A stretch of 64,000 nt of DNA from NCBI RefSeq assembly GCF_020177335.1, contig NZ_JAIVMG010000003.1, positions 496,001 to 560,000 of the forward strand, written 5' to 3'. Source of the DNA: Stappia indica (GTDB lineage Bacteria > Pseudomonadota > Alphaproteobacteria > Rhizobiales > Stappiaceae). Shown here piece after piece: positions 4,441 to 32,947 of this stretch (positions are counted from its first letter, which is position 1; each line of letters begins with the position of its first letter). Under the pieces are notes generated by a model, which did no database searches, had not been told where the DNA came from, and was given only the letters and a program-made list of their open reading frames with translations. The translations under genes were made by a program, and so were the position numbers.

Positions 4441-4442
4441 CC

Positions 4443-12111: not shown

Positions 12112-12129
12112 TGTATTAACCTCTAAATC

Positions 12130-14695: not shown

Positions 14696-14705
14696 AGGGG
14701 CACCC

Positions 14706-16199: not shown

Positions 16200-16810
16200 C
16201 CACGAAATACTTCGCAGACGCCACGACTGGCAAAGACCTTGGTGGTTTCGCACCGGCTCCGGCCTATGAGGTGCGCACACCGCAACCGCCGATCATTGAC
16301 CCGGAGACTGGCGCTGAAATCCCGCAGGACGATCTAGTCGAGACCGTCACGCCGGAGGTGGTTCCGCCGCCGAACAGCGTGGGGGTGCCGGGACCGCCTG
16401 AACACGGCGACATGGTGTGGAACGGCAGCGCATGGGAGTGGCCAGCTCCTACCGTCGCCGATCTTCATGCGCACCTGTCACATATTCGTCAGATGCATGA
16501 GGCGGTCGGCGTGACCGTCACGGTCGGCTCGGATGCCATGGAGATCGAAACCGATCTGGCGTCACAGGCTAAGATCCTCGGCGCCCGCGTTGCTGCGGAT
16601 AATGACCCAGGGTTCGCGACTACCTGGTCGGCGAAGAATGGCTATTTCTCACTCGACGCGGCGGGCATCGTTGCCGTTTCGGACGCTGTCCTTACCCACG
16701 TCAACACGTCGTTCGCGGCCAAGAAGTCCGTTGCCGATCAGATCGAGGCGGGGACCTTGACCACCCCGCCGGAGGTCGAGGCGGCATTCACTGCCGCGCT
16801 GGCCGGATAA
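16196..16810 (+). CDS. DUF4376-domain protein, probable tail-fibre-associated protein
   Basis: This 204-residue protein has a Pro-rich N-terminal half (about residues 20-85) followed by a C-terminal helical region (about 90-200) with the layout of DUF4376, a family found next to phage tail fibre genes ('SAWEWP' then a His/Ala-rich helix, ending 'PPEVEAAFTAAL'). It overlaps the fibre gene by ATGA and is followed by a terminator, so it closes the virion operon. A role in fibre assembly is inferred from neighbours. Confidence 0.55.
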   Translation: MTTKYFADATTGKDLGGFAPAPAYEVRTPQPPIIDPETGAEIPQDDLVETVTPEVVPPPNSVGVPGPPEHGDMVWNGSAWEWPAPTVADLHAHLSHIRQMHEAVGVTVTVGSDAMEIETDLASQAKILGARVAADNDPGFATTWSAKNGYFSLDAAGIVAVSDAVLTHVNTSFAAKKSVADQIEAGTLTTPPEVEAAFTAALAG

Positions 16811-16832
16811 GCCTCTACGCATTCCGCATCAC

Positions 16833-16854
16833 ACCGCCTCTGGGCGGTTTTTTT
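16833..16854 (+). terminator. Rho-independent terminator ending the virion operon
   Basis: ACCGCC (16833-16838) and GGCGGT (16843-16848) form a 6-bp stem with a TCTG loop and are followed by a run of seven T. It lies 23 bases after the DUF4376 gene and just before the endolysin ribosome site, so it may only partly stop transcription into the lysis genes. Confidence 0.8.
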
Positions 16855-16878
16855 GTGCCTGAACCAAGGACTCTACCC

Positions 16879-17718
16879 ATGAAGATCAGCAAGCGCGGGC
16901 TGGCGTTCATCGCCGGCCATGAGGGCTTTGTGTCCAAGGCCTACCGTGACTCGGTGGGCGTCCTGACCATCGGCTACGGCTTCACGATGCGCAGCCGTAT
17001 CTTCGCGGCCTACTGGCGGGCCAAGCGGGGCAGGGCGCTTCAGCTTGGCGACAGGATCAGCCGCGACGATGCCGATACCGTCTTGGCGAAGCTGGTGGAC
17101 GAGGAATATGGCGTGGCGGTCACGGCCTACTTCGGCGATCTGCCGCAGCACCAGTTCGACGCGGCCTGTTCGGTCGCCTTCAACCTCGGCCCAGGCGCGG
17201 TGAAATGGCGCTGGGGCCGGGCGCTCAAGGCCGGCGATGTCGACGGCGCGGCAATGATCCTCGCGGCCAACTACAACACCGCCGGTGGTCGCCGGCTGGC
17301 CGGGCTGGTCCGGCGTCGCAAGGAGGAGGCATCTCTGCTCGCCAATGGCAATTATGGCCACGGGTCAGCGCCCGCGCCCGATGCCCAGCATGACGGCGAT
17401 CTTCTCCGCCAGCTTGGCTACGACACCGACAAGTGGCCGGTCGCGGTCCGCTCGTTCCAGCGGGACAACGGCCTTGTGGTAGACGGCATCTTCGGCCCGG
17501 CCTCCCGCGCCACGGCAAAGCGGCTCCTCACAGTGAAGGCAACGCGGAAGGACATCGGCGGCGCCGGGGTTGCGGCCTTCATCGCAGCCATTGCCGGCTA
17601 TGTCTCCGATCTGCCCACTGCCCAGGTTTTGCTGTTCGTTGGCGGCATCGCCGTTTCCGTTCTCGCCGTCTGGTGGATCCGCGGTTTCATCGCCACCCGC
17701 AAGCCGAAGGGAGACTGA
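16879..17718 (+). CDS. GH24 endolysin with peptidoglycan-binding and C-terminal membrane segments
   Basis: This 279-residue muramidase has the T4-lysozyme catalytic spacing E15, D24, T30 (GHEG...RDS...TIGYG) in its N-terminal domain (residues 1-155). A peptidoglycan-binding domain follows (about 170-215, 'WPVAVRSFQRDNGLVVDGIFGPAS'). The last ~60 residues contain two hydrophobic helices separated by a short loop, then a positively charged end (RKPKGD). An AAGGA site precedes the ATG at 16879. The C-terminal membrane anchor is unusual among phage endolysins and suggests that release or export is tied to membrane depolarisation. Confidence 0.88.
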   Translation: MKISKRGLAFIAGHEGFVSKAYRDSVGVLTIGYGFTMRSRIFAAYWRAKRGRALQLGDRISRDDADTVLAKLVDEEYGVAVTAYFGDLPQHQFDAACSVAFNLGPGAVKWRWGRALKAGDVDGAAMILAANYNTAGGRRLAGLVRRRKEEASLLANGNYGHGSAPAPDAQHDGDLLRQLGYDTDKWPVAVRSFQRDNGLVVDGIFGPASRATAKRLLTVKATRKDIGGAGVAAFIAAIAGYVSDLPTAQVLLFVGGIAVSVLAVWWIRGFIATRKPKGD

Positions 17719-18935: not shown

Positions 18936-19230
18936 TTCTTCCCCTTGAAATCGTTATTCCCTCTTGCTTTTCAGCCGCTTGCATACATGCTGCGTCTACA
19001 CAGACGCATACACATGGGCATGTCATGGCAGGCAGGATCCGGTACCTTCACGAGGACACCCGCGGTCGATCCTACGCGAGAGTGAGCGCCGAAGATCGAG
19101 AGCCTGCGGAAATAGCGCCGCTGCATGGTTTTCGGCACTTCTTCAAGACGAACGCCAGGACGCGATCCTGCCGCCGAGACCAATACAGTTACGGATGGCG
19201 CTTCGGCACTGAAACCTGCGGGCGGGGGAT
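18936..19230. other. Attachment-site flank with a possible decayed integrase tail
   Basis: No intact gene is seen. A short plus-strand frame (19025-19240) includes 'LHGFRHFFKTNAR', reminiscent of the H-x-x-R box near the C-terminus of tyrosine integrases, but the remaining catalytic residues are absent and the frame has no homologous start. I treat this as a possible relic only. It separates the prophage scar from the truncated hsdR copy. Confidence 0.3.
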
Positions 19231-19520
19231 GAGTGTCTGAGTTGGCGCAGAGCCCGCCTGCTTCGGATTACACCGCCGCGCTGCGGTTGATCTCGTTGAT
19301 CGCGTCGACCAGCTCGTCGGCCCGCGTCAGGTCGAAAACCTGCTCCGGTCCACTCGGTGCCACATCCGTGAACGGGCTCTCGTAGAGCAGTTGCGGATCC
19401 ATCACGCCTTTTTCGGTCAGGTGGTCGACGATCATGTCGATGAACTCGATCTGTTCCGGGGTGGAGGCGGCATCTGCGACGAACGCGGAGAAGGCGCCGC
19501 GAACCGCCTGGCGGTCGAGC
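19231..19520. repeat. Left copy of the 290-bp hsdR-end direct repeat
   Basis: This sequence matches 36247-36536 in the same orientation with about three differences in 290 bases (one is C versus T in the 'GACCAGCTCGTC' stretch). It contains the last ~84 codons and stop of hsdR plus ~37 bases beyond it. Homology stops sharply after 'GCGGTCGAGC' at 19520. Confidence 0.95.
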
Positions 19521-19522
19521 AC
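19268..19522 (-). pseudogene. Truncated hsdR 3' end (duplicate)
   Basis: This fragment encodes the last ~84 residues of the HsdR found at 36284-39712, essentially identical in protein sequence, and ends at the same stop. No upstream hsdR sequence precedes it; the join at 19520/19521 leads into unrelated DNA. It is therefore a severed gene end and not a functional protein. It marks one boundary of the segment lying between the two repeats. Confidence 0.9.
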
Positions 19523-19598
19523 GCAGACCTCGATACCAAACGGTGGCGCCCCCTTCCGGAAACGCCGCCGTTTGCCTTTTCCGATGCCATCGGCCCAA

Positions 19599-19931
19599 TC
19601 AGGCGTCGATATTCACCTCAACATCGAGCAGCGGCGCATATTGCTGTGCGCCGAAGATGTCCGGATCGCCTGGGCTCCCGCTCGGACGGGGGCGCAGGAT
19701 GGTGAACTTGATCGCATTGGCCGGATCGTATTCGACAAAGTCGGTGATGCGGTTGTCGCTGATATTGAACAGGGCCGAAACGGTTGCCCGCGTCAGCGCG
19801 CCGGAGCGCTTGACCGTCTCGTAGACCTCACGTTCGCGGAAGATCACATCGAAGGTGATCTTGTCCGTGCCCGCGTTCTTCGACCGAATGGTCTTGGCCA
19901 ATTCGGAGAGCTTCTTCGTCGTCATCATCAT
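19599..19931 (-). CDS. DUF4387 protein, partner of the AtuA-like protein
   Basis: The 110-residue product has the features of DUF4387: an N-terminal 'LSELAKTIRSKNAG' helix, 'ITFDVIFRERE', and the C-terminal 'DIFGAQQYAPLLDVEV'. This family is nearly always encoded directly behind an AtuA/DUF1446 protein, as here, and in some cases is fused to it. The ATG overlaps the stop of the AtuA gene (ATGA), so the two are co-translated and probably form one complex. The biochemical function of DUF4387 is not established. Confidence 0.8.
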   Translation of the reverse strand: MMMTTKKLSELAKTIRSKNAGTDKITFDVIFREREVYETVKRSGALTRATVSALFNISDNRITDFVEYDPANAIKFTILRPRPSGSPGDPDIFGAQQYAPLLDVEVNIDA

Positions 19932-21310
19932 GCGGTCTCCAGAACGTCGGCACCGACGATCTCGCTGTGGGTGGGGAACAGGGCGAGCGGGTCATTCACC
20001 GCCATGGTGTGATTGAGGGTCCAGCGGCAGCCGGGGCTTGCCTCCATCACCTCGTCGAAGACAAAGGAGACACCACCGGCCGTCCCCTTGACCTCCGGCA
20101 GGCGGGCATAGAACAGCTGCCGCGTGCCGGTGATGGTCAGCTCCTCGGCCATCTCCCGGGTCGGCGCCACCCCTTGCACGACAATCAGCAGCTCATGGGC
20201 CGGCTTGTCCTTCAGCGGCTCCATCTCGCCCATGATGCCGTTGCGGCCGAAGACGTTGTAGTGAAGCTCCCAGCCGCTGTCGCCGAAGCGCTCGCGTACC
20301 TGGGTCCGCGCCCATTCGATCACCGCATCGACATTGGCGATGGTGTAGGGATCGCGAATCCCGGCCATGCCGACAAAGCGTGCTCCGAGCCGCCCCGAGC
20401 CCTCGAGCTTGACGCGGAACTCCTCAGCCGGAACGAACTGCATTCCCGTGACACGGGTGGTCTTCTCGGTGACCTGCTCGTAGCGACAATCGGTCATGTC
20501 GAGCAGACCGCCGGCGACATATTCGTGGAACGGGTTGGAGCGTTCGTACATGGCGTGTCCCGCCACCGAGGCGACGGTGCAGCGTTGCTCGGGATGCATG
20601 GCCGTGACCTCGACCCACTCGGGCGTGATCTCGCCCATCACGGTTTCCTTCGCGCCATAGGGCTCGGCGCAGAAAGACGCGCATTCCAGCACCTTGCCGA
20701 GGTAGTAGGCCTGGGCGTCCGGATAGCCCTCGTGCAGGGCTGCGGAAGCGAAGACCGCACTGTCGGAAGAGCGCCCGCCGATGATCACGTCGCAGCCCTC
20801 CTCCAGCAGCGCGCGGAACGGGTGCACGCCCGCCATGGCGACAATGCGATCCGTGGCGTCCAGCTCCGCCTCATCGAGATCCGGCCGTCCGTCCAGTCCC
20901 TGGACCGGCGATCCACCGCGAATGCTGGCGCGCACGACCTCCTTGTCGACCTCCGAATAGAACCAGCCGAGGCGGAATGGCGCCAGATCGTGCTTGCGGG
21001 CCAGGTCGCGAATGATCTGCACATACATGTCGACCCGGCTGTTGGTGCCGGTGTCGCCGGCCGAGCCGATGATCATCGGCTTTCCGGTGCGGCGCGCCGC
21101 CAGCAGCATCACTTCCAGATCGTGCTCCTGCCAGGCGCGGGGGCTGGCGCATGTGTCGCTGCCGAGCGGAACCGGACCGATATCGTCGCTGCCGGAATCG
21201 GCGGCGATATAGTCCGTCCCCGCCGCGACGGCGATATGGAAACTCTCCGTCTTCAACGGCGCGAAGCCCAAATGCCCATTCGGGCAAATGACCTTGAGCG
21301 ATTTCGTCAT
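19928..21310 (-). CDS. AtuA-family (DUF1446) protein
   Basis: This 460-residue protein belongs to the acyclic-terpene-utilisation AtuA family. It begins with 'GHLGFAPLKTESFHIAV', then 'DYIAADSGSDDIGPVPLGSD', 'IGSAGDTGTNSRVD' and 'DVIIGGRSSDSAVFA', conserved blocks of the family. Members appear in hydroxy-acyl or terpenoid catabolic clusters, but the reaction is not settled. A GGAGA ribosome site precedes the ATG. A putative sigma-54 promoter lies about 40 bases upstream, so this gene and DUF4387 form their own unit next to the transport operon. I do not infer terpene use, because no other atu genes are nearby. Confidence 0.8.
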   Translation of the reverse strand: MTKSLKVICPNGHLGFAPLKTESFHIAVAAGTDYIAADSGSDDIGPVPLGSDTCASPRAWQEHDLEVMLLAARRTGKPMIIGSAGDTGTNSRVDMYVQIIRDLARKHDLAPFRLGWFYSEVDKEVVRASIRGGSPVQGLDGRPDLDEAELDATDRIVAMAGVHPFRALLEEGCDVIIGGRSSDSAVFASAALHEGYPDAQAYYLGKVLECASFCAEPYGAKETVMGEITPEWVEVTAMHPEQRCTVASVAGHAMYERSNPFHEYVAGGLLDMTDCRYEQVTEKTTRVTGMQFVPAEEFRVKLEGSGRLGARFVGMAGIRDPYTIANVDAVIEWARTQVRERFGDSGWELHYNVFGRNGIMGEMEPLKDKPAHELLIVVQGVAPTREMAEELTITGTRQLFYARLPEVKGTAGGVSFVFDEVMEASPGCRWTLNHTMAVNDPLALFPTHSEIVGADVLETA

Positions 21311-21349
21311 GTCTGAATTCTCCGATCTGCAAAATCCCGACCGGCTCTA

Positions 21350-21366
21350 TGCACGGGGTGTGCCAA
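21350..21366 (-). promoter_or_regulatory. Putative sigma-54 promoter of the atuA-DUF4387 unit
   Basis: Read on the minus strand the sequence is TTGGCAC-ACCCC-GTGCA. It has a perfect -24 element (TGGCAC, 21365-21360), a 5-base spacer and a -12 element with one change (GTGCA for TTGCA). It sits about 40 bases upstream of the AtuA start and downstream of the sigma-54 activator gene. Confidence 0.65.
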
Positions 21367-21468
21367 CTCAAAATATCAAATCAAGTCACTGAAATATTTG
21401 ATAAATAAAAAACAACCTCAACCACCCAGAAAAGAGGCGCGCCATTCACACGCACCCGCGCGCGGATC

Positions 21469-22521
21469 TCACGCGCCCGTCATTCCCAGTTTGATCATCT
21501 GATGGCGCAGTGCGTGGCGGCTGATCTTCAACAACCCGGCCGCCTCCTTGAGATTGTTCCTGGAGGCCGCCAGCGCCTGCTCGACAAGCTGACGCTGATA
21601 GGCTTCGGTCGCGGCGCGAAACCCCATCGCCAGATCGATTCGGGCAGTTGGATGTTCCGCACAAGCCCCGCCCCGGACGGTTCGCAGGATTCGGTCCGGC
21701 AGGTGATGCGGCGCGATCACGTCGTCATCCTCAAGAATGAAGATGCGCTCGATCAGGTTTTCCAGCTCGCGAACGTTTCCAGGCCACCGGTATTGCAGGA
21801 AGATTTCGGCGGTTTCCGCTGCAAGCCCCTTGATGGTCCGCCCATACCGCCCGTTGTATTTGGCGATGAAATAGTCGGATAATTTCAACACATCGTCGCC
21901 CCGCTCAGCCAGCGCGGGAATGTTGATGGCGACGACCTGAAGCCGGTAGTAGAGGTCCTCACGGAAGTTACCGGCCACCACCTCCGACAGGAGCACCTTG
22001 TTGGTCGCCGCGATAAAACGCACGTCGACGGCGGTGGTCCGCACCGCGCCAACCCGGCGAAATTCATGGGTGTCGAGCAGGCTGAGCAGCTTGGTCTGCA
22101 GCATCGGCTCCATTTCCCGGATTTCGTCCAGGAAGATGGTGCCATGGTTTGCCGCCTCGACCAGCCCGACCTTGCGATCGATGGCGCCGGTGAAGGCTCC
22201 CTTTTCGTGGCCGAACAATTCCGATTCCAGCAGGCTTGAGGGAATCGCGGCGCAGTTGATATCGACGAACTGTTTCGACGCCCGGCTGGACAAGCGGTGC
22301 AGCATGCGCGCGACCATGCCCTTGCCGGTGCCGGTCGGCCCGTAGATCAGCACATTCTGCGCCGGCGAGCGCGCAACCCGCTCGATCAGCGCACGCAGCG
22401 CCAGGATGCTCGGATGATCACCGATCAGGTCATTCTGATAGCCCGTCATGCACGTCCCTTGCCGCGCCTTGGACGCGCCAACCGCGCTCACAGGGCGAAC
22501 CGTTTCCACTTCCCGAGACAT
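21469..22521 (-). CDS. Sigma-54-dependent transcriptional activator lacking a sensor domain
   Basis: A 350-residue bacterial enhancer-binding protein. It has an AAA+ domain with Walker A GPTGTGKG (residues 61-68), the sigma-54-contacting loop GAFTGA (108-113), Walker B IFLDEI and an arginine-finger region, then a C-terminal Fis-type helix-turn-helix (about 320-345). Only ~25 residues precede the AAA+ module, so there is no receiver, GAF or PAS domain, as in PspF. The ATG at 22521 follows GAGGG. The gene is last in the transport operon and overlaps the C45 gene by 34 bases, so it is likely translated with it. Two sigma-54 promoters nearby are its obvious targets. Confidence 0.9.
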   Translation of the reverse strand: MSREVETVRPVSAVGASKARQGTCMTGYQNDLIGDHPSILALRALIERVARSPAQNVLIYGPTGTGKGMVARMLHRLSSRASKQFVDINCAAIPSSLLESELFGHEKGAFTGAIDRKVGLVEAANHGTIFLDEIREMEPMLQTKLLSLLDTHEFRRVGAVRTTAVDVRFIAATNKVLLSEVVAGNFREDLYYRLQVVAINIPALAERGDDVLKLSDYFIAKYNGRYGRTIKGLAAETAEIFLQYRWPGNVRELENLIERIFILEDDDVIAPHHLPDRILRTVRGGACAEHPTARIDLAMGFRAATEAYQRQLVEQALAASRNNLKEAAGLLKISRHALRHQMIKLGMTGA

Positions 22522-23594
22522 GGGGTTCCCTCGTGGAAATATAGACACCGATCACGCCAGGAATAAACCACCGAGGAAATGGTTTGCGCTTCGGCACCTT
22601 GTGCATGCTGACACACCGGTGCGGAACGGCCCTCGTCGTCCGCATGCCGGGCCATCAGCCGCATGACCTCCGTCACCTCGCCGGAAAGCCGGGGCAGGGC
22701 ACTGGAGAGAAACGCCAGACGGGTTTCCGAATTGGCGGCGACCCGATCGTCCTCCGGCGGCAGCGTATCGCCGGCCAGAGCCTTGGACACGAAGTGGTTG
22801 GTGCGCAGAACCCTGTTCTTCTGCTCCACCGCAACCTGCCGCGCGCCGAGCTCAACTGCCGCCACCGCACCGCCGGCATCGGCAAGAACCAGCGTCCCGC
22901 CGCCGGCATGGGGCACCGAGCGGATGAAGGCGAGTGCCTCGGCCACGCTGGCACAGCTGGCGAGGATCCGGTTCATCAGGAAGTACCGCAGCCAGCCCAT
23001 TTTATGGGTTTTTGCGCCAACCTGGGTATCGGCCAGCATCAATCCGCGCCCATTCATGCCGCTGGAATAGGCACCGGGACTGCCCAGGCTGCCAACGCAC
23101 AGCATCGACCCGGTGGCGATGTCCGGCCCGGTATGGCGAAAAACGGTCTGCACCCCCAGATGGGTTCCGGAAAAATCCCGGTTCTTGGCGACGACCGGGC
23201 CGGCCTCGCCGGCGCCAATGGCAAGCGCACTACAACCATCGCCGTCAAGCGGGGCTCCATCGAGCATGGCGCCCTCGCCAAGGTCACCGACGATCCGCAG
23301 ATGCAGATGGTCGAACAGGTCGTCCATATCGAGGCCGAAGCCTTCGGCGATGCCGGAAAGCTCCGCCAGAGACCAGGGATCATGCATTTCGGCGAAGCGC
23401 CGCTGTGCCACAAGATAGGCGCGGACCTCCTCGTTGAAGGCGCCGGCACGGCGGGCCTGCGCCACCCGCGCCACCGTCGCGGCGATGACCTGCGCCGGCG
23501 CGACGTCGCCCGCCTCCGCCTGACCGAGACCGCGTTGCCGGCTGTCGCCGCGCAGATCGAGGGCTTGCCCCTCTTCGATCCTGACCGCCTCCAT
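22488..23594 (-). CDS. C45-family Ntn hydrolase / acyltransferase
   Basis: The 368-residue product resembles the peptidase C45 family (isopenicillin-N acyltransferase-like N-terminal-nucleophile hydrolases). These self-cleave before a cysteine and then hydrolyse or transfer amide-linked acyl groups. The putative nucleophile is Cys121 in 'DGDGCSALAIG', followed by 'VVAKNRDFS', the conserved block after the nucleophile, and later 'GMNGRGLMLADTQVG' and 'VLRTNHF'. The start (ATG 23594) overlaps the preceding ATPase stop and follows GGAGGGG. Encoded within an oligopeptide-type transporter operon, it probably cleaves an imported peptide or acyl-amide. No signal peptide is seen, so it should act in the cytoplasm. 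Confidence 0.85.
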   Translation of the reverse strand: MEAVRIEEGQALDLRGDSRQRGLGQAEAGDVAPAQVIAATVARVAQARRAGAFNEEVRAYLVAQRRFAEMHDPWSLAELSGIAEGFGLDMDDLFDHLHLRIVGDLGEGAMLDGAPLDGDGCSALAIGAGEAGPVVAKNRDFSGTHLGVQTVFRHTGPDIATGSMLCVGSLGSPGAYSSGMNGRGLMLADTQVGAKTHKMGWLRYFLMNRILASCASVAEALAFIRSVPHAGGGTLVLADAGGAVAAVELGARQVAVEQKNRVLRTNHFVSKALAGDTLPPEDDRVAANSETRLAFLSSALPRLSGEVTEVMRLMARHADDEGRSAPVCQHAQGAEAQTISSVVYSWRDRCLYFHEGTPCLGKWKRFAL

Positions 23595-24631
23595 CAACAC
23601 CCCTCCGCGCGCGATGCCGTCTCCAGAACGGACAGGTTCTCATGCAGCCGGTGGCAGGCCACCCTGTGCCCGGGTGAGACTTCCTCCGGCACCGGCGCCG
23701 CGTGCTTGCAGGCATCGGTAGCCAGTGGACATCTTGTGTGAAACTTGCAGCCCGGTGGCGGATCGAGCGGCGAGGGAAGGTCGCCGGTCAGGCGCACGCG
23801 CTGGTGATGTCCGGGCGCATCGACATCGGGCACCGCCGACATCAGGCTCTGGGTGTAGGGGTGGCGCGGCCGGGCCAGCACATCGCTCGCCGGCCCCATT
23901 TCGACGATCTCGCCGAGATACATCACCGCGACCCGGTTGCTCAGATAGCCGATCACGGAAATGTCGTGGGAGATGAACAGGTAGGTCAGGCCCATCTCGT
24001 CCTTCAACTCCAGCAGCAACTGGATGATCTGCGCCTGGATCGACACATCGAGCGCCGACACCGGTTCGTCGCAGACGATGAATTCCGGATGGCTGATCAG
24101 CGCCCGGGCAATGCCGATCCGCTGCCGCTGACCGCCTGAGAACTGATGCGGATACCGGTCGAGATGTGCCGCGTTCAGCCCGACCTTCTCAAGGATGCCC
24201 ACCACCTGATCGCGCATCTCGGACCGGCTGGCCGCCAGCCCGTGCAGACGCAGCGGCAGCCCGACGATATCGGCCACGGTCGAACGCGGATTGAGCGAGG
24301 CATAGGGGTCCTGAAAAACGATCTGCATGCGCCGGCGCATGTCCTTCAGGGCGCCGGCGGACAAGGCGGTCACGTCGGTGCCATCGAACAGCACACGGCC
24401 TGCGGTCGGTTCATGCAAACGCAGCACCGCGCGCCCGAGCGTGGACTTGCCGCAGCCGCTTTCGCCGATCAGACCAAGGATCTCGCCTCGATCGACGTGA
24501 AACGAGACATCGTTGACCGCCCGAACGGAAAAGGGCTCGACCCCGGTCAACCGATTGGCAAGGCTGCGCCGGCCCTCATAGACCTTCGACAGGTTCTCGA
24601 CCTGCACCAGCGGATTTGTCAGGGATGTCAT
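23594..24631 (-). CDS. Oligopeptide/dipeptide ABC transporter ATPase (DppF/OppF type)
   Basis: The 345-residue product energises import by hydrolysing ATP on the inner face of the membrane. Visible motifs are Walker A GESGCGKS (residues 56-63), Q-loop 'IVFQDPYASLNPR', signature FSGGQRQR, Walker B 'FIVCDEPVSALD' and the C-terminal oligopeptide module with cysteines ('CKFHTRCPLATDACK') typical of DppF-like ATPases. The ATG at 24631 overlaps the stop of the DppD-like gene (ATGA). It works as a pair with that protein. Confidence 0.93.
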   Translation of the reverse strand: MTSLTNPLVQVENLSKVYEGRRSLANRLTGVEPFSVRAVNDVSFHVDRGEILGLIGESGCGKSTLGRAVLRLHEPTAGRVLFDGTDVTALSAGALKDMRRRMQIVFQDPYASLNPRSTVADIVGLPLRLHGLAASRSEMRDQVVGILEKVGLNAAHLDRYPHQFSGGQRQRIGIARALISHPEFIVCDEPVSALDVSIQAQIIQLLLELKDEMGLTYLFISHDISVIGYLSNRVAVMYLGEIVEMGPASDVLARPRHPYTQSLMSAVPDVDAPGHHQRVRLTGDLPSPLDPPPGCKFHTRCPLATDACKHAAPVPEEVSPGHRVACHRLHENLSVLETASRAEGC

Positions 24632-25632
24632 GCAACCGCCTCCTCCGCGATGGCAATGCAGCGCGCCCGGCGACCGGGCCCGGCAGGGCGCATTGCGACA
24701 GTTTGCAGACAGCTGTCCATCCGTTCCGGGCAGCGCGAATAGAAGCGGCATTGGGGTGGCAGTCCGACAAGGTTCGGAACCTGCCCCTCAATCGGCCGAA
24801 TTGGCTGACCACGCATGGACAGCCTCGGGATCGAAGCGAGCAGACCGCGCGTGTAGGGATGGCGCGGATTGGCGATGACATCGACCGTCGCTCCCTCCTC
24901 CACGACCTGCCCGGCATACATCACCATCACCCGATCGCAATGCTCCGCCACCACGCCAAGATCATGGGTGATCAAGACAACACTCATCCCGAGCCGGGCA
25001 CGAATGTCGGAAATCAACTCCAGCACCTGCGCCTGGATCGTCACATCGAGCGCTGTGGTCGGCTCATCGGCGATCAGGAGCTTCGGTCCGGGCGCCAGGG
25101 CAATGGCGATCATGATGCGCTGGCGCATGCCGCCGGAAAACTCGTGCGGGTATTGACCCAGACGGCTATCCGGCGAGGGAATGCCGACAAGCCGCAACAT
25201 CTCCACCGACTTCTCTCGGATCGCGCGGCGCCGCGCGCCGCCGCGCGCCGGCAGGTCCTCGTCGTGGGCATTCAGCATCTCTGCCAATTGCTCGCCCACG
25301 GTCAGCGCCGGATTGAGCGCCGTCAGCGCGTCCTGCATGGTCATGGAGATATCGCGGCCGCGAATGGCCCGCATGTCACGCGGACCAAGGCCGATCAGAT
25401 CCCGGCCGTCGAAGCGGATCCGCCCTCCGGCGATCCGCCCCGGCGCGCGAACCAGCCCCATGACGGAGGAGAAGGTCACGCTCTTGCCCGAACCGGATTC
25501 ACCGACAACGCCAAGGCATTCGCCGCGCCGCACGGTAACATCCACCCCGTCGACCGCGCGCACCGCGCCTTCGCTCGTGTCGAAAACCGTACGCAGGTCC
25601 TCAACCTCAAGCAGGATATCGTTCTGGGACAT
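24628..25632 (-). CDS. Oligopeptide/dipeptide ABC transporter ATPase (DppD/OppD type)
   Basis: The 334-residue ATPase has Walker A GESGSGKS (residues 44-51), Q-loop '[12 protein letters not shown]', signature FSGGMRQR, Walker B '[12 protein letters not shown]' and the C-terminal Cys-bearing module ('[14 protein letters not shown]'). The ATG at 25632 follows AGGAG. A GC-rich tandem stretch (GCGCGCCGCC type, ~25230-25252) encodes an Arg/Gly/Ala-rich insertion near residue 130. It partners the DppF-like ATPase and sits 2 bases downstream of the DppC-like permease gene. Confidence 0.93.
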
Positions 25633-25634
25633 GG

Positions 25635-26546
25635 TCACTCCTGAAACCTCGGATCGAAGGCATCGCGCAATCCCTGGCTGGCCACGTTGATGGCGAGCAC
25701 CAGCAGGAGGATCGCCAGGCCGGGGAAGGTGCTGACCCACCACGCGCCGAGAATGAAGGCGCGGCCATCGGCAACCATCGAGCCCCAGGACGCGGTCGGC
25801 GGCTGCACACCAAGACCGAGAAAGCTGAGGCTGGCCTCCAGGATGATCACATGGGCGATGCGGATGGTTGAAACGACGATCACCGGCGACAGGATGTTCG
25901 GCAGGATTTCCCGCGCCATGATATGCGCCGAGGAGGCCCCCAGCGCCCGGGCCGCCTCGACATACTCAAGCTCCCGGGTCGCCAGGGTCTCCCCGCGCAC
26001 CACCCGGCAGGGGATCACCCATTCCTTGTAGGCCAAGGCCAGGATGATGTTGACGAGGCCCGGTCCCATCATCGCCATCAGGCCGATAGCGAAGATCAGG
26101 TAGGGGAAGCTCAGCAGGATATCGACGAGACGCGAGATCGTCACATCCACCCAGCCGCGGAAATAGCCAGCGGCCAGCCCGGCGGCGATGCCGACCGTGG
26201 TGGCGACGAAGATCACCGCCGCGCCGATGAAAATCGAAATGCGCGAGCCGTAGATGATGCGCGACAGGATATCCCGCCCCAGCGCATCGCAGCCCAGCAG
26301 ATAGCTCCATTCGCCCCCCGCCTGCCAGGCAGGCGGTTGCAGCCGGCGGAAGAGATCCGTCTCGTTCGGATCGTGCGGCGCGATCCATGGCGCAAAGATC
26401 GCCAGCAGCACGAACAGGAAAACAACTGCAACGCTCGCCATCGCCAGACGATTGGCGGCGAACCGCGCAAGGTTGCGTCGGAAGATCGTTTGCCCAGCAC
26501 CGGACGCGACGGCGACCGGACCTGCATCGATGTCGGCGACCGTCAC
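25635..26546 (-). CDS. Oligopeptide-type ABC permease (DppC type)
   Basis: This 303-residue inner-membrane permease has six predicted helices: one after a cytoplasmic N-terminus (about residues 36-58), an extracytoplasmic loop with 'GRDILSRIIYGSRISI', then five helices. The EAA-type coupling loop reads 'EYVEAARALGASSAHIMAREILPN'. The start is a GTG that overlaps the stop of the DppB-like gene and follows GAGGG. Together with the DppB-like subunit it forms the translocation channel. Confidence 0.92.
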   Translation of the reverse strand: MTVADIDAGPVAVASGAGQTIFRRNLARFAANRLAMASVAVVFLFVLLAIFAPWIAPHDPNETDLFRRLQPPAWQAGGEWSYLLGCDALGRDILSRIIYGSRISIFIGAAVIFVATTVGIAAGLAAGYFRGWVDVTISRLVDILLSFPYLIFAIGLMAMMGPGLVNIILALAYKEWVIPCRVVRGETLATRELEYVEAARALGASSAHIMAREILPNILSPVIVVSTIRIAHVIILEASLSFLGLGVQPPTASWGSMVADGRAFILGAWWVSTFPGLAILLLVLAINVASQGLRDAFDPRFQE

Positions 26547-27550
26547 AGCTTCACCCTCGGATTGAGCGTTGTGTAGAGAAGGTCGGCGATGAAGTTCAGC
26601 AGCACATAGGTCACCGCGTAGAACAGCACCGCCGCCTGGACGAGCGGGTAGTTGCGCAGAAAGACGCTCTCCACCACCAGCCGGCCAAGCCCTGGCCAGC
26701 CGAACACGGTCTCGACGATCATGTTGCCGCCGAGCAGCGAACCGGTTTCGATGGCGGCGACCGAGACGGTGGGGATCAACGCGTTCTTGAGAGCGTGGCG
26801 GAACAGGATCCGGCCACGCCTCAGCCCCTTGGCCTCGGCAAAGACGATGTAATCCTGCCGCATCACCTCAAGCATCGATGTGCGGGTGACCCGCATCAGA
26901 ATGGCCGTCATCGGCAACCCAAGGGTGATCGCCGGCAACAGGATATGCTTCAGCGCATCCCAGAATGCGTCCGGCCGGCCGCGCAACAACGTGTCGATCA
27001 GGAGGAAATGGGTGATCGGCTCGATCTCGCTGTCAAAACCGATCCGGCCGGAGACCGGCAGCAGTTGCAAATGCACCGCAAACAGCATCAAGAGCAGAAT
27101 GCCGAACCAGAAACCGGGCAGGGACACGCCAAGCAGCGACCCGACCGTGGCCATCTTGTCGAGGATGGAATTGCGCCGGATTGCCGCCAGCACACCGAGC
27201 GGAATTGCCGTCATCAGGGCGATGACCAGAGCCACCAGGCTCAGCTCGATGGTCGCGGGCAACCGCTCGACGATCACATCGAACACAGGTCGGCGATGGT
27301 AGAAACTGGTTCCGAAATCGCCCTGCACCGCATTGCCGAGGAACACCAGAAACTGACGATGGACCGGCAGGTCCAGCCCCAGATCCTCGCGCATCGCCTG
27401 TTCCTCTTCCGGCGTAACGCTCTGATCCCCGATCATGATGTCCACCGGATCCCCCGGGGTAAGCGCCATCATCAGGAAGACGATGACGCTCACCCCAAGC
27501 AATACGGGGACGAGATGGAGCAGCCGTTCAGTGAGCTTGCCCAGCGACAT
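26543..27550 (-). CDS. Oligopeptide-type ABC permease (DppB type)
   Basis: This 335-residue inner-membrane permease has the DppB architecture: a first helix at residues 9-30, a ~70-residue periplasmic domain ending in 'GDFGTSFYHRRPV', then five helices. The coupling loop is 'DYIVFAEAKGLRRGRILFRHALKNALIP'. It begins 25 bases after the binding-protein gene and overlaps the DppC gene by four bases. Confidence 0.92.
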   Translation of the reverse strand: MSLGKLTERLLHLVPVLLGVSVIVFLMMALTPGDPVDIMIGDQSVTPEEEQAMREDLGLDLPVHRQFLVFLGNAVQGDFGTSFYHRRPVFDVIVERLPATIELSLVALVIALMTAIPLGVLAAIRRNSILDKMATVGSLLGVSLPGFWFGILLLMLFAVHLQLLPVSGRIGFDSEIEPITHFLLIDTLLRGRPDAFWDALKHILLPAITLGLPMTAILMRVTRTSMLEVMRQDYIVFAEAKGLRRGRILFRHALKNALIPTVSVAAIETGSLLGGNMIVETVFGWPGLGRLVVESVFLRNYPLVQAAVLFYAVTYVLLNFIADLLYTTLNPRVKL

Positions 27551-27575
27551 ATGCTTGTCCCGTCCGTGTTATGGG

Positions 27576-29114
27576 TCAGTCGACGCAAGCGTCGTGCAGG
27601 TTGATGCGGCTGTCCGCGCTCGGACGCCATCCCTTCAGGCGCTTGGAAACGCCGTAGATGTCCTGCGGCACCCAGAGATAGACATAAGGCAGGTCGGCGT
27701 TGACCATCTGCTCGGCCTTGCGGTAGAGCGCCGCCCGCTTTTCCGTGTCCAGCTCCACCGCTGCCTCGTCCAGCAGCCGATCCAGTTCGGGATTGGCATA
27801 GCCGGCGGAGTTGCCACGGTCATTGGTGCGGTGGGTCGGGGTGAAGATGTCGAACGGATCGAGCGAACCGTTGCCCCAGGAGGTGAAATACATGTCGCCG
27901 GACTTCGGACCGCCCTTGGTGCGCCACTTCTGGGTCATCTGCGCGCCCTCGCCCACCGCGACCCGGGTGCGGATCCCCGCCTTGGTCAGCAGGGAGGCAA
28001 CCGCCTCGGCGATATCCTTGTAGGCCCCGACCGTATCCATGGTCACGTCAATGCCGTCCGGGTAGCCGGCCTCGGCCAGCAGAGCCCGGGCCTTGTCCGG
28101 ATCGTACTCGTAGCGCGGCAGGTCGGTGCTGGCGGCAAAGGCATCCGGCGACAGGATGCCCTCGATCCGGGCGGCATTACCGCCAAGAATCCGGTCGATG
28201 ATCAGATCCTTGTCGATCGCATGAGCAGCGGCACGGCGCACCTTGGCATCGCCGAACAGCTCCCCTTCCATGTTCATGGCAATGAAGAAGCTCCGGGTCC
28301 CGTTGACGGTCATCACATCCGTGCCCGGGTTGTTCTTCACCTGCTCGACGGAGAAGGGCGGCAACTCGTTGATGATGTCGACGTCGCCGGAGAGCAGCGC
28401 GGCCACCCGAGACGCGGATTCGGGAATGATCTTGAAGATCGCCCGGTCGACACAGGCCTTGCCAACCGGCTCAATGGAGGCGGCGCCGCCATAGTAGTCG
28501 TCGAAGCGCTCCATGATGATGGCATCGCCCTTGCGCCAGGCAACCAGCTTGAACGGACCGGTGCCGTTCACCTGGGTCGCCAGACCTTGCGTTCCGACCT
28601 TTTCTACGAAGGCCTTGGAGACCACTTCCTGAAACGGCAACATGGCCGGCAGGATCGGCCAGGGCTCGGACAAGGTAATGCGCACCGTGTTGCCATCGCG
28701 CACCTCAACCGACTGTAACGGCCCCAACAGGCTCTTGCGCGGGCTGGTCTGGCCCTCGCCCATTGCCCCTTCGGCCGTCAGTCGTTCGAGGGTAAAGCGA
28801 ACATCCTCGGCGGTCAGCGGCGAGCCATCGTGAAAGGTAATGCCCTCCCGAATCCGGAAATCATAGACCGTCGGCGACACCATGACGAAGGCTTCGGCGA
28901 TTTCCGGCACCACCTTCATCTCCCCATCGCGGGTCAGGAGGCCGTCATACATGTTGCGGATAATGGTCTCGGTTTCGCGATTGCGGTGATTGGCCGGGTC
29001 CAGCGTATGCGCATCCAGCGTGAACCCGACCCGCAACTCGGCCGCTTGCGCAGCGGTGAGCGATAAGGCCAGAGCCGTCGCCGACGCAAACAGTATCCGT
29101 TTCAGTTTGACCAT
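27576..29114 (-). CDS. Periplasmic solute-binding protein of the oligopeptide ABC family (SBP_bac_5)
   Basis: The 512-residue product captures the transported solute in the periplasm. It has a Sec signal peptide (residues 1-24, cleavage after AQA), then 'RVGFTLDAHTLDPANHRNRETETIIRN', 'GDGSPLTAEDVRFTLERL'-like and 'VNGTGPFKL' blocks typical of family 5 binding proteins. The ATG at 29114 is preceded by a very strong GGAGGAAG site. Being first in the operon behind a sigma-54 promoter, it should be highly expressed when the activator is on. The ligand is unknown; family members bind peptides, nickel, opines and other compounds. Confidence 0.9.
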   Translation of the reverse strand: MVKLKRILFASATALALSLTAAQAAELRVGFTLDAHTLDPANHRNRETETIIRNMYDGLLTRDGEMKVVPEIAEAFVMVSPTVYDFRIREGITFHDGSPLTAEDVRFTLERLTAEGAMGEGQTSPRKSLLGPLQSVEVRDGNTVRITLSEPWPILPAMLPFQEVVSKAFVEKVGTQGLATQVNGTGPFKLVAWRKGDAIIMERFDDYYGGAASIEPVGKACVDRAIFKIIPESASRVAALLSGDVDIINELPPFSVEQVKNNPGTDVMTVNGTRSFFIAMNMEGELFGDAKVRRAAAHAIDKDLIIDRILGGNAARIEGILSPDAFAASTDLPRYEYDPDKARALLAEAGYPDGIDVTMDTVGAYKDIAEAVASLLTKAGIRTRVAVGEGAQMTQKWRTKGGPKSGDMYFTSWGNGSLDPFDIFTPTHRTNDRGNSAGYANPELDRLLDEAAVELDTEKRAALYRKAEQMVNADLPYVYLWVPQDIYGVSKRLKGWRPSADSRINLHDACVD

Positions 29115-29189
29115 CCTAGCTTCCTCCCATCGATGTTCTGGCCGGCATCGGTGCCAATGAGGCCGCACATTGCCAGCTTTCCCCATCTA

Positions 29190-29206
29190 CGCAAACCTCG
29201 TGCCAA
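29190..29206 (-). promoter_or_regulatory. Putative sigma-54 promoter of the transport/C45/activator operon
   Basis: On the minus strand the sequence is TTGGCACGAGGTTTGCG. The -24 element TTGGCACG is perfect, followed by the 4-base gap to TTGC of the -12 element. The predicted transcription start lies about 65 bases upstream of the binding-protein ATG. The match is close to the textbook consensus (final W replaced by G). Confidence 0.8.
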
Positions 29207-29446
29207 ATTATCACCTCCGGAACGAGTTATTTTTTTATTATTTTTCAGAAGCTTAGATCCAACCTATTCATACCCCCCGCAAAACGTCGAGAGTTACGCG
29301 CGATTTACACGCTCATGTAGATTTTTCACGCACGCACATTCATCGAATGGAAGCAGTCCCTGGCAAGACGCGTTGGCGCTTCACCATCCCCCTGACCTTC
29401 CGCTGAGCGGGTCCACCGTTATGGTTAGGAAAACGGAGGATTCGAA
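29207..29446. other. Upstream region of the sigma-54 operon, no gene
   Basis: This AT-richer stretch holds no gene. It is where upstream activator sites for the enhancer-binding protein are expected; I see no unmistakable pair of inverted repeats. An IS relic begins at its right end. Confidence 0.45.
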
Positions 29447-29917: not shown

Positions 29918-31222
29918 TCATCCGCCGAGGATCAGGCGCGGCAGGGTGAGAGAGAGTGCTGGCAGGAAGGTCGTCAGCAGCACCACCGGCAGATAGGCCA
30001 GGAAGACGAACACCAGCGTTGGCAGAAGCATGCGTGCGAGCGGCACATTGCCGATCAGCCCGGCGAAATAGAGGATCGGCGCCGTTGGCGGCGTGATCAG
30101 CCCCATTCCGAGGTTCGTGGCGATGATCGCCGCGAATTGTACCTGATCGACGCCTGCTTGTTGCATCACTGGAAGCAGCAGCGGGGCGGCCAGCAGGATG
30201 CCGCTGACATCCTCCATGAACATCCCGACGATCATCAGGAAGATGTTGGCCATCAGCAACAGGATGATCGGGCTCTCGCTGACCGCCAGGAAGCTTTCGA
30301 GAATCTGCTGCGGCACGTCTTCCAGCGTCCAGACCCGGCCCAGCATGGATGCGAAAAAGATCATCAGCAGCAGCACGCCGGTGGTGCGCCCGGCGCGCCA
30401 GATCACGTCCGCCAGATCGCGCCAGTCGATGTCGCGATAGAGATAGATCGACACGGGAATGGCGTAGAGTACCGCCACGGCGGCAGCCTCGGTGGGGGTG
30501 GTCACCCCGCCATAGATGAAGCCCAGGATCAAGACCGGCATCACGAGGCCCATGCCGGCCCTGCGGCCGCGCCGGGCCACTTCGCGCGCGAACTGGCGGG
30601 CGTCGACCGATGGCGGCGTCACCAGCGGCATGCGCCGGGTCAGCACGCGATTCCAGAACGCCAGCAGTGCGCACAACAGAAGACCCGGCACCACCGGCGC
30701 CAGAAAACTTGCCAGGATCGAGGTGCCGGTGACCCAGCCGAACAGGATCATCGAGGCGCTCGGCGGGATCAGCAGCGCCAGCACCGCCGAAGCCGAGACC
30801 AGCGCCGTGGCGTAGCCCCGGTCATAGCCTCGGGCCTCCATGCGCGGGATCATGATCGTGCCGATTGCCGCCACCGCCGAGGAGGCCATGCCGGAGATGG
30901 CGCCGAACACCGCCGTTGCCAGGATCACCACGATGCCGAGCCCGCCGCGCATTCGGCCGACGAGGCTGTCGGCAAGATCCACGAGCCGTTCGGCGATCCC
31001 GCCGCGGCTCATGATGCTGCCGGCCAGAATGTAGAGCGGAATGGCGATGACCACGATGGAGGAGAGTTTCGAATAGCCCGCTCCGACCAGAAAGCTGGCC
31101 GAGCCGAAATCGCCGAACAGCACGAGAAATAGAACCGCGCCGGCGAAACAGAAGGGCACCGGCACGCCAATGACAAGAAGCAGGGTCAATAGGAGTGCAT
31201 CGTAAATAATGATGTCGCTCAC
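29918..31222 (-). CDS. dctM: TRAP transporter large permease (DctM)
   Basis: The 434-residue inner-membrane protein drives solute uptake by ion symport. It has about 12 hydrophobic helices and DctM signatures: 'IPLYILAGSIMSRGGIAERLVDLADSLVGRMRGGL', 'AISGMASSAVAAIG' and 'TPPTAPILYFAGLIG'. The start is a GTG sharing GTGA with the stop of the DctQ gene; the frame is open further upstream but that part lies within dctQ. It completes a DctPQM set with the next two genes. Confidence 0.93.
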   Translation of the reverse strand: MSDIIIYDALLLTLLLVIGVPVPFCFAGAVLFLVLFGDFGSASFLVGAGYSKLSSIVVIAIPLYILAGSIMSRGGIAERLVDLADSLVGRMRGGLGIVVILATAVFGAISGMASSAVAAIGTIMIPRMEARGYDRGYATALVSASAVLALLIPPSASMILFGWVTGTSILASFLAPVVPGLLLCALLAFWNRVLTRRMPLVTPPSVDARQFAREVARRGRRAGMGLVMPVLILGFIYGGVTTPTEAAAVAVLYAIPVSIYLYRDIDWRDLADVIWRAGRTTGVLLLMIFFASMLGRVWTLEDVPQQILESFLAVSESPIILLLMANIFLMIVGMFMEDVSGILLAAPLLLPVMQQAGVDQVQFAAIIATNLGMGLITPPTAPILYFAGLIGNVPLARMLLPTLVFVFLAYLPVVLLTTFLPALSLTLPRLILGG

Positions 31223-31833
31223 GCCGTAGCCTCCTCGTCGGTCGCGGGGCCCAGCACCAGGCGGCGCAGCCGCTCCAGCAGCTCGACCACGAAGTAAAGC
31301 GTCATCAGGCTGAGGCCGACCGGTTTGATTGCGTAGACCCAAGCCATGGGTAGGCCGGTTTCAAGCGACATGGTGCCTCGGCCGATGGTGTAGTCGAGGT
31401 ACTGCCAGGCCCACAGTGACATCCAGCCGGCAAGAACCACGGTGATCAGTCCGGCGAGAACGCTGAGCGCTAGGCGGGCCCGACCGACGGGCAGCACCAG
31501 GTCCACGAGGCTTGCCGAGATATGGCCACGTTCCCAGGCGCCGTGGCTGGCACCGAGGAAGTAGAGATAGACTGCGACGAAACTCGCCAGCTCCTCGATC
31601 CCGAAAATCGAGATGCCAAGCACGTAGCGGGTGAAGACCTGAACGGCGATCAGCAGTGTGAGTGCCGCGCCGCAAACCACGAGCAAGATCCGCTGCACGC
31701 GCAGCGTCCAGTTCCATGCCGTCAACGCGCCGCCTCGCAGAAAGCGGGGGGTGTTCACCGTGTCCGGCGCGGCGGCGAGCGGCGAGGCCCTGACACCCGC
31801 CGCTACGGTTTCCGTTTCCGTCTCGTTCTGCAT
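31219..31833 (-). CDS. dctQ: TRAP transporter small permease (DctQ)
   Basis: The 204-residue product has four membrane helices (about 46-68, 83-103, 123-145, 165-187) and the DctQ block 'FTRYVLGISIFGIEELASF'. It forms the two-subunit permease with DctM. ATG 31833 follows GGAGG; an in-frame GTG further upstream is less likely. A hairpin with a U-tract separates it from dctP, which probably lowers its expression relative to the binding protein. Confidence 0.9.
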   Translation of the reverse strand: MQNETETETVAAGVRASPLAAAPDTVNTPRFLRGGALTAWNWTLRVQRILLVVCGAALTLLIAVQVFTRYVLGISIFGIEELASFVAVYLYFLGASHGAWERGHISASLVDLVLPVGRARLALSVLAGLITVVLAGWMSLWAWQYLDYTIGRGTMSLETGLPMAWVYAIKPVGLSLMTLYFVVELLERLRRLVLGPATDEEATA

Positions 31834-31874
31834 GTCTGGGCGTCCTCCCGATCGCCGTGTCACTGCCCTGCGAC

Positions 31875-31909
31875 AAAAAGCGGATCGCGCGGTGGCCGCG
31901 ACGATCCGC
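31875..31909 (-). terminator. Hairpin with U-tract between dctP and dctQM
   Basis: On the minus strand GCGGATCG (31909-31902) and CGATCCGC (31887-31880) enclose an inner CGCGG/CCGCG stem and are followed by TTTTT. This is a strong intrinsic terminator inside the operon, best read as an attenuator giving more dctP than dctQM mRNA. Confidence 0.75.
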
Positions 31910-31933
31910 TCCGTCTCCCGAATGGTGTTCGGA

Positions 31934-32947
31934 TTACTCCACGCCGAGCGAAGCCTTCAGCTTGTCGAACGTCTCCTCTCCGAGTTCGTCGGAGATCTCC
32001 GGCCAGACGTCGCGACGCACGATCGCGGCCAGTTCCTCAAGCTCCGCCTTGTCGAAGGTGACCACGTCGATGCCGACCTCGCGCATTGTCTCCAGGGCGG
32101 CGGCGTCGGCCGCCGCGACATCCTCGAAACGTTCGGCGCTGACCTGTTGCGCGGCCGCCAGCAGCACCTTGCGATCCGCTTCCTCTAGGTTCGCGTAGGT
32201 GTTGGCATTGACGATGAACCAGTCGCCCTCGAAGTGGGTGTTGTACTGGACCCACGTCCTGGTGATGTCCTCGAAGGATTCCAGCGTCATGTTCGCGGTA
32301 CCGCCGACCTGGCCGTCGACCACGCCGGTCTGCATGCCGGTGTAGAGTTCCGCCCAGGGCACCGTCGCGGTGTTGTAGCCCAGACGCTCCAGCAGCACCC
32401 GGTGGGTGATGCCGCCCGGCCACACCCGCACCTTCAGGTCATGTTTGGCGTCGAAGTCCTTGACGTTCTCGACCGGCTTGGCGAAGCCCGCGCCGCCCAT
32501 GCCGGCGCCGAACACACCCAGTGGGGTCAGGCCCTGCGGTTCCAGAACGTCGTTGACGATGGAGAAGACTGCGCCGCCGGGCGACAGCGATTCCCGGGCT
32601 GTGTCGTAGTCGATGAAGGCATAGGGAAACCAGGTGATGGCGAGGCGCTTGTCGCTGCTTGTCGCCAGCGGCTGCATGGCCATGTCGACCGCGCCCTGAA
32701 TGACCTGTTCGTATACCTCCGTCCAGTCGCCAAGCTGGCTGGCGGGATAGACCTTGATCTTGATGCGCCCTTCGGTGCCCTGTTCGACCAGATCGGCAAA
32801 GCGCAGCGCCGCCGTCTCACCCTCGGAGCCGGGCTTCTTCAGGGTCGACAGACGCAGGGTTTCCGCCTGAACGCTGCCGCTCATCAGCACCGCTGCGGTC
32901 GCTGCGGCAATCGCATAGGTGGCGAGTTTTTTCGCGTGATGTCTCAT
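31934..32947 (-). CDS. dctP: TRAP transporter periplasmic binding protein (DctP)
   Basis: This 337-residue solute receptor has a Sec signal (residues 1-28, cleavage after VQA), then 'LRLSTLKKPGSEGETAALRFADLVEQ', 'VYPASQLG' and 'QGAVDMAM', DctP family blocks. The 'LKVRVWPGG' segment contains the conserved arginine that usually pairs with a substrate carboxylate, so an organic or amino acid is expected. ATG 32947 follows GGAGGAG. It is transcribed divergently from the MocR regulator. Confidence 0.9.
   Translation of the reverse strand: MRHHAKKLATYAIAAATAAVLMSGSVQAETLRLSTLKKPGSEGETAALRFADLVEQGTEGRIKIKVYPASQLGDWTEVYEQVIQGAVDMAMQPLATSSDKRLAITWFPYAFIDYDTARESLSPGGAVFSIVNDVLEPQGLTPLGVFGAGMGGAGFAKPVENVKDFDAKHDLKVRVWPGGITHRVLLERLGYNTATVPWAELYTGMQTGVVDGQVGGTANMTLESFEDITRTWVQYNTHFEGDWFIVNANTYANLEEADRKVLLAAAQQVSAERFEDVAAADAAALETMREVGIDVVTFDKAELEELAAIVRRDVWPEISDELGEETFDKLKASLGVE

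Follow-up and report, generated by a model that had tools for sequence, protein, structure and literature searches.

A candidate two-transcript sigma-54 regulon in Stappia indica joining an oligopeptide-type importer, a C45-type hydrolase and an AtuA-DUF4387 pair

The window analysed here is a stretch of 64,000 nucleotides (64 kb) of Stappia indica (contig NZ_JAIVMG010000003.1, positions 496,001 to 560,000), and its subject is a group of nine genes in two units, all on the minus strand and read from 29206 down to 19599, as are the promoters and activator sites described below. The first unit encodes a family 5 solute-binding protein (SBP; 27576..29114), OppB-type (26543..27550) and OppC-type (25635..26546) permeases and OppD-type (24628..25632) and OppF-type (23594..24631) ATPases, that is, an oligopeptide-type ATP-binding cassette (ABC) importer, followed by a C45-type N-terminal nucleophile (Ntn) hydrolase (22488..23594) and a sigma-54 activator, or enhancer-binding protein (EBP; 21469..22521). 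The second encodes an AtuA-family protein resembling the lyase subunit CmlA (19928..21310) and a DUF4387 protein resembling the lyase subunit CmlB (19599..19931). All nine proteins score above the Pfam cut-off of their families: SBP_bac_5 (PF00496, E 6.5e-82), OppB (PF00528, PF19300), OppC (PF00528, PF12911), the two oligo_HPY ATPases (PF00005 and PF08352 in each), C45 (PF03417, together with NF040521, both above cut-off), sigma-54 activator (PF00158, E 5.2e-64, with PF02954), AtuA (PF07287) and DUF4387 (PF14330). The importer type is supported by Pfam, and none of its five proteins reached the cut-off of a named NCBIfam Opp, Dpp, Nik or Gsi equivalog among the matches listed (for the two ATPases, the best 25). 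By inspection, the SBP start was moved from 29186, which lies upstream of the predicted transcription start, to the ATG at 29114; the latter appears to fit better, being preceded by GGGAGGA and opening an N terminus that by eye resembles a signal peptide. The open reading frame (ORF) of OppF opens at 24751, with the ATG at 24631 the likelier start on inspection, and the start of the EBP is uncertain (22548, 22521 or 22449).

A predicted -24/-12 promoter of the sigma-54 type, TTGGCACGAGGTTTGCG, precedes the transporter unit at 29190..29206 with 12 of the 13 consensus letters, and another, TTGGCACACCCCGTGCA, precedes the AtuA-DUF4387 genes at 21350..21366 with 11; both have the form GG-N10-GC. 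An earlier note on this DNA had placed its two promoter matches at these very positions, and both were located there. At up to three mismatches to TGGCACGNNNNTTGCW, the 64 kb hold 112 sites against 115.5 expected from shuffles, which is no excess; the site at 29190 is alone in having one mismatch, whereas that at 21350 is one of six with two and therefore proves nothing by itself. In the related loci, 10 or more of the 13 letters are matched by an element lying no more than 300 nt before AtuA in 68 of 94 cases (1.9% when shuffled) and before the SBP gene in 38 of 41 (1.8%), mostly at distances of 45-110 nt from the former and 74-112 nt from the latter; these loci are related, at least one genome was entered twice (L007/L084), and the 94 include nine distant relatives (L008-L016), eight of which score below 10 letters. 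The closeness of the two matches, which the earlier note had remarked on, gains weight from their recurrence at similar distances in dozens of loci, but the second does not rise above chance in the window alone.

Upstream of the -24/-12 elements lies a palindrome, TGCGTGAAATTCACGCA, which is described here for the first time as a candidate activator site. Of 106 regulatory regions, 100 contain one or more sites of this type, compared with 2-4% of shuffled regions and 3-5% of random locus stretches, the motif having been trained on regions of the same promoters. With the full motif, the candidate site upstream of the AtuA promoter (CGCGTGAGATCCGCGCG, 21459..21475, overlapping the EBP stop codon) ranks first of the 64 kb and the candidate upstream activator sequence (UAS) of the SBP promoter (AGCGTGTAAATCGCGCG, 29297..29313) ranks second; a second and weaker candidate, TGCGTGTGAATGGCGCG at 21438..21454, ranks fourth, and third, fifth and fourth with three retrained motifs. 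The two main sites still rank first and second when the window and four Stappia-type loci are left out of the training and, in an independent test, training on 24 betaproteobacterial loci only ranked 29297-29313 first and 21459-21475 second. Furthermore, the compound pattern GCGTG-N5-CRCGC, 68-98 nt and TGGCAYR-N5-TGC is matched exactly twice in the 4.66-Mb genome, once at each of the two promoters, and never in the reversed control; 8 of the 22 genomes searched hold a match. Since this pattern was drafted with the window sites in view, it is evidence of rarity and not of discovery. The promoter pattern TGGCAYR-N5-TGCAT, with one to five matches in each of nine genomes, was uninformative, and a palindrome of even width, TTGCGCGCAA, was rejected as a poorer description, the odd width of 17 that gives TGCGTGAAATTCACGCA nearly doubling the score.

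The EBP carries a Walker A motif, GAFTGA and a Fis-type helix-turn-helix (HTH; HTH_8), and the domain scan found no sensor domain in it. GAFTGA is kept in 65 of 69 relatives, with GSFTGA in three and neither in one, and the tip of the HTH (RHA-RHQ) is near-invariant among the 69, in line with one conserved site. The window genome gave a single RpoN match (G000:C12), on another contig and not beside the operon, which presumably uses it. The earlier identification of an encoded sigma-54 activator is borne out by PF00158, HTH_8 and GAFTGA, and the sigma-54 regulon that the note proposed is strongly supported by the conserved promoters, the activator-site motif at both, the RpoN in the genome and the GAFTGA activator.

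The C45-type protein passes the curated cut-offs of the C45 autoproteolytic hydrolase/acyltransferase family and has the expected Cys after Gly; Gly-Cys and KNRD are invariant in 26 of 26 aligned rows, and self-cleavage is predicted before the Cys of DGDGC-SAL. The nearest solved fold to its model (predicted local distance difference test, pLDDT, 89.5) is isopenicillin N acyltransferase (2x1e), with a template modelling (TM) score of 0.75 and 18% identity.

For the second unit, the AtuA-family protein matches 9erq_A (E 2.9e-73) and the DUF4387 protein matches 9erq_B (E 3.3e-24), deposited as the citramalate lyase subunits CmlA and CmlB; the AtuA model (pLDDT 90) superposes on 9evf_A (‘Citramalate lyase - ADP - pyruvate complex’) with TM 0.91 and 32% identity. 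The earlier note had recognised the AtuA-DUF4387 pair, which is indeed present, but did not know of this homology. Citramalate-making genes beside the pair, a supporting and not strictly defining context, were absent among the window frames scanned. DUF1446 is presumably the older name of the AtuA family. In enterobacterial glutamate-fermentation clusters, for example that of E. coli O157:H7, a DUF1446 gene whose function was then unknown lies downstream of methylaspartate ammonia-lyase, according to the available part of the source (PMC4682846); E. coli records hold a relative 32% identical to the window AtuA, which we infer to be that gene. A CitE/MaoC-like set beside AtuA was seen in one Aquamicrobium locus only (L057), where metallo-beta-lactamase, thiolase, CoA-transferase-like, glutathione S-transferase, acyl-CoA dehydrogenase, MaoC-like and RipC/CitE-like genes lie upstream of AtuA (2716-9725).

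The conservation of the gene set was followed in 81 loci, 80 found through AtuA plus the window, 56 of which have at least 8 kb upstream and at least 3.5 kb downstream (the window flanks were entered by hand). Neighbouring genes were detected by tblastn, simple gene calls in the GC-rich contigs having given many antisense ORFs. Importer, C45 and EBP occur together in 36 of the 56 loci, and another 14 lack importer and C45 but have the EBP and a TctC receptor. All 36 AtuA loci with an importer carry C45, and the 20 that have no importer all lack it (Fisher 1e-15, with no correction for ancestry); four importer loci that seemed to lack it were masking artefacts, and C45 was present on recount. 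A class-wide search led by C45 gave matches at 13 places, spread over 12 of 385 genomes with that of the window among them. Eight of the ten stretches read contain AtuA together with C45 and importer genes, seven of them also DUF4387 (L171 is cut); of the other two, L168 has C45 with a distant AtuA-DUF4387 pair (33%) about 5 kb away and L170, the weakest C45 match, has C45 alone and no AtuA. The remaining places outside the window are G082, which also has AtuA (L007), and G720, which was not among the stretches read. The regulators differ among these loci (LysR in L166 and L167, GntR in L165) and, therefore, the set of importer, C45 and AtuA-DUF4387 seems to be the constant core, with a regulator that changes. 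The absence of co-occurrence in other genomes, on which the earlier note would have given up its idea, is contradicted by the 36 loci with importer, C45 and EBP and by the eight further C45-found loci. Two variant arrangements were recorded: two tandem AtuA-DUF4387 pairs follow the importer-C45 genes in L167 (4039-7445), and on a Cupriavidus necator plasmid EBP, AtuA, DUF4387 and TctC stand in one row (L148, 7548-11905).

The window AtuA is 96-97% identical to that of two S. stellulata loci (L020/L021), in one of which aminotransferase, aldehyde dehydrogenase and C26 genes, a polyamine-type set, lie downstream of the unit (L020, 12704-16311); the other, of S. stellulata DSM 5886 (L021), has all nine genes of the window set. 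Of 397 genomes of the order, 13, among them that of the window, have an AtuA relative at E <= 1e-60; the 4 genomes of the same genus and the 15 others of the same family that the sample lists have none. This patchy distribution suggests that the locus was gained by transfer or repeatedly lost. The nine-gene set is complete on a 1.38-Mb plasmid of Ciceribacter thiooxidans (L147). On a Terrarubrum plasmid, AtuA-DUF4387 follows an ‘iron’ type ABC importer, and an Opp-type set lies at a greater distance upstream (L146, 8145-13703).

An rpoN gene accompanies the operon in 24 of the 81 loci (a 25th, L024, is cut), lying just before the SBP gene in the same direction in 23 of them (in L057 the units are in a different order) and in divergent orientation in L031; Pfam confirms the four locus RpoN proteins scanned. 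In a tree of 45 proteins, from which second copies of locus proteins and three fragments were dropped, 23 of the 24 locus proteins form, together with a single protein from outside the loci, a weakly resolved group that is separate from the housekeeping type; the L031 protein groups with the latter. The second RpoN of the L049 genome (L131, G415) lies outside the locus, yet in the locus RpoN group. The RpoN of the 23-member group is the sole RpoN detected in nine of 24 genomes searched, namely Thetidibacter halocola, Maritimibacter sp. HL-12 and seven metagenome-assembled genomes, which may be incomplete; the L031 genome also has one RpoN. PF00158 gave matches in each of the 14 control genomes, and the activator count was therefore based on the exact GAFTGA code, which misses variants: four of the nine genomes (L038, L043, L025, L026) have this code a single time, in the locus EBP, and the other five have it two or three times, and T. 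halocola (L038) has a second activator-like protein with GAFPGA. RpoN distances over 23 loci correlate best with those of the EBP (r 0.90), followed by C45 (0.84, 21 loci), AtuA (0.73), OppB (0.66) and SBP (0.63), a result that shared ancestry could explain. A plasmid search with a locus RpoN returned 181 records, all below 60% identity. The letters A,T at -11,-10 were rejected as a promoter change tied to the locus RpoN: they separate the SBP promoters (20 of 23 with locus RpoN against 1 of 13 without, the one being L024, whose contig is cut inside RpoN) but not the AtuA promoters (22 of 24 against 20 of 47), ancestry being uncorrected in both comparisons.

The sequence-level basis for an interpretation is thus formed by the genes, promoters and activator sites, their conservation, the C45-importer coupling among AtuA loci and the CmlAB homology; transcript limits, all enzyme activities, substrate and inducer are what we infer. 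In the mechanism that we propose, the sensorless EBP would bind TGCGTGAAATTCACGCA-type sites whose centres lie some 80-100 bp upstream of both -24/-12 promoters and, with RNA polymerase-RpoN, would open both; as it is encoded in the first unit, it would also raise its own level. The first unit would yield the importer, the C45 hydrolase and the EBP, and the second AtuA-DUF4387. The importer would take up a conjugated hydroxy acid, the self-processed C45 hydrolase would cut the amide (or ester) bond of the conjugate, and an AtuA-DUF4387 heteromer would cleave the freed acid, probably a citramalate-like 2-hydroxy diacid, into pyruvate or another 2-oxo acid and acetate (or activated acetate). The TctC loci would import the acid itself. 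To this whole explanation, a two-transcript sigma-54 catabolic regulon with import, C45 release and AtuA-DUF4387 cleavage, we assign a probability of about 0.6. Its parts differ in strength: the regulon is very probable, the order of import, hydrolysis and cleavage is reasonably probable, and the citramalate-like substrate class is tentative, falling somewhat short of even odds. The earlier proposal of import, deacylation and use of an N-acylated compound survives in part, as conjugate import, hydrolysis and use, which fits the C45-importer coupling, the N-acyl group itself being conjectural. No description of a pathway with this exact set was found in the literature searched, judged by titles and the starts of abstracts, in line with the earlier note, which knew of none; likewise, the searches gave no paper on DUF4387 or on a citramalate lyase with AtuA, and PMC12316311 makes no mention of AtuA, oligopeptide, citramalate or DUF.

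Several observations weigh against this explanation. The window AtuA is only 32% identical to CmlA, and the citramalate activity of CmlAB is taken from PDB molecule names and one title, with no paper found. Citramalate-, mesaconate- and methylaspartate-type genes were absent among the flanking window proteins scanned, and the RipC-like context occurs in one locus (L057), with a score of 159 against a RipC cut-off of 375. No solved relative of C45 was found by sequence at E <= 1, and its chemistry therefore rests on family models and fold. The sensorless EBP would leave the response to the substrate unexplained, and most loci of the second, C45-found clade lack an EBP, L164 being the only one with it. 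The 80 loci were collected via AtuA, and the C45-importer association is not corrected for shared ancestry. Finally, 6 of the 56 well-flanked loci lack EBP, importer, C45 and adjacent TctC by the criteria used: L093 has a C26 amidotransferase-type hydrolase beside OppBC, L094 has AtuA, DUF4387 and OppBC laid out as in L093, in L058 an S15 hydrolase accompanies an Opp set, L055 has TctC and tripartite ATP-independent periplasmic (TRAP) transporter genes, L095 has TRAP genes, and L056 has dehydrogenase and major facilitator superfamily pieces upstream. In favour of the explanation, on the other hand, count these other hydrolases beside Opp-type genes where C45 is missing (C26 in L093, S15 in L058), the TctC receptor in place of importer and C45 in 14 loci, and the genes upstream of AtuA in L057 described above. 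In L058 a D-glutamate cyclase-like protein directly follows AtuA-DUF4387, and the S15 hydrolase precedes it (11815-13983).

The best surviving alternative accepts the regulon but takes C45 as an acyltransferase or detoxifying acylase and AtuA-DUF4387 as a lyase of another compound, two uses of one switch. The 14 of 56 loci in which AtuA-DUF4387 and the EBP occur but neither importer nor C45 does, the promoter that AtuA has of its own and the acyltransferase as nearest solved fold of C45 all agree with it; in the C45-led search, however (12 non-window places in 11 of 385 genomes), AtuA stands close behind C45 in eight of the ten stretches read, and we regard this alternative as a real but minor contender. 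A role of AtuA-DUF4387 in acyclic terpene (citronellol/geraniol) breakdown, suggested by the Pfam family name of PF07287, is very improbable: the solved relative is deposited as a citramalate lyase, and the carboxylase and other Atu genes of that pathway were not found among the window frames scanned, to which the search was confined, the 20 frames of the unit and its surroundings showing no biotin carboxylase, enoyl-CoA hydratase or acyl-CoA dehydrogenase. A chance origin of the -24/-12 matches in GC-rich DNA, with transcription of the unit from other promoters, agrees with a near-match count equal to the shuffled expectation, but is the least credible of all, since similarly spaced elements are found in dozens of loci, a motif from betaproteobacterial loci predicts the activator sites of both promoters, and the compound pattern occurs only twice in the genome.

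Around the nine genes, the region 19143-19598 held nothing found to belong to the unit, and a remnant of a type I restriction enzyme R subunit (PF08463; 19271-19600, minus strand) lies directly downstream of DUF4387. Glucosaminidase, DUF4376 and phage-lysozyme proteins at 12329-17718 (plus strand) may be part of a prophage adjoining the unit. Upstream, at 29918-36082, lie a TRAP transporter (DctM, DctQ, DctP), a GntR/aminotransferase regulator and a flavin adenine dinucleotide (FAD) oxidoreductase.

The regulatory anatomy of this locus is firm, and its gene set is conserved, probably catabolic and nowhere found described. The relatives with a sigma-54 of their own bear on the question of why the Rhodobacterales maintain multiple rpoN genes, some of which have no known target (RpoN4 of C. 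sphaeroides, as given in the available part of PMC11999139). A bolder and doubtful extension would see in the family a mobile and self-contained sigma-54 catabolic island, equipped with importer, hydrolase, lyase and a sensorless activator, to which 23 relatives add a divergent sigma-54 factor; in some Rhodobacteraceae the island would be the organism's entire working sigma-54 system, with a partner protein reporting the substrate. Such a partner would be required because no sensor domain was found in the EBP; AtuA-DUF4387, present with the activator in importer and TctC loci alike, is a weak candidate for it, since the loci were found through AtuA. L038, L043, L025 and L026, with one RpoN detected and one exact GAFTGA, both in the locus, would be natural minimal sigma-54 circuits, L038 being the only isolate among them. 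For the widespread AtuA/DUF4387 gene set, the gain is a testable pathway and a precise regulatory code of activator site plus promoter.

Among known systems, PspF-type sigma-54 activators consist of AAA+ plus HTH with no N-terminal sensor. The window EBP shares this build, but it scores 245 against a cut-off of 444 for NCBIfam pspF, and no PspA-like gene was found among the nine genes of the unit by the Pfam scan. The C45 protein shares with isopenicillin N acyltransferase (2x1e) and the C45 family the fold and the Gly-Cys nucleophile site, although its identity to the former is low, as given above. In RipABC itaconate degradation, a citramalyl unit is converted to pyruvate and an acetyl unit, a chemistry that the proposed AtuA-DUF4387 reaction would parallel, and RipC acts on CoA thioesters; the likeness is the RipC-like gene beside AtuA in L057, whereas no Rip-like gene occurs among the flanking window proteins scanned. 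The citramalate lyase CmlAB (9erq, 9evf) shares with the window pair an AtuA-fold subunit with an adjacent DUF4387 subunit. Finally, dedicated RpoN-activator pairs are described in Cereibacter sphaeroides, for example RpoN3/AprX, while RpoN4 is given no target in the available part of the source (PMC11999139). AprX as described there has a receiver domain, which was not found in the window EBP, the targets of the window type are catabolic, and the one RpoN of the window genome lies elsewhere; however, a sigma-54 paralogue that serves a small gene set together with a dedicated activator is what that pair has in common with the 24 relatives in which rpoN adjoins the operon.

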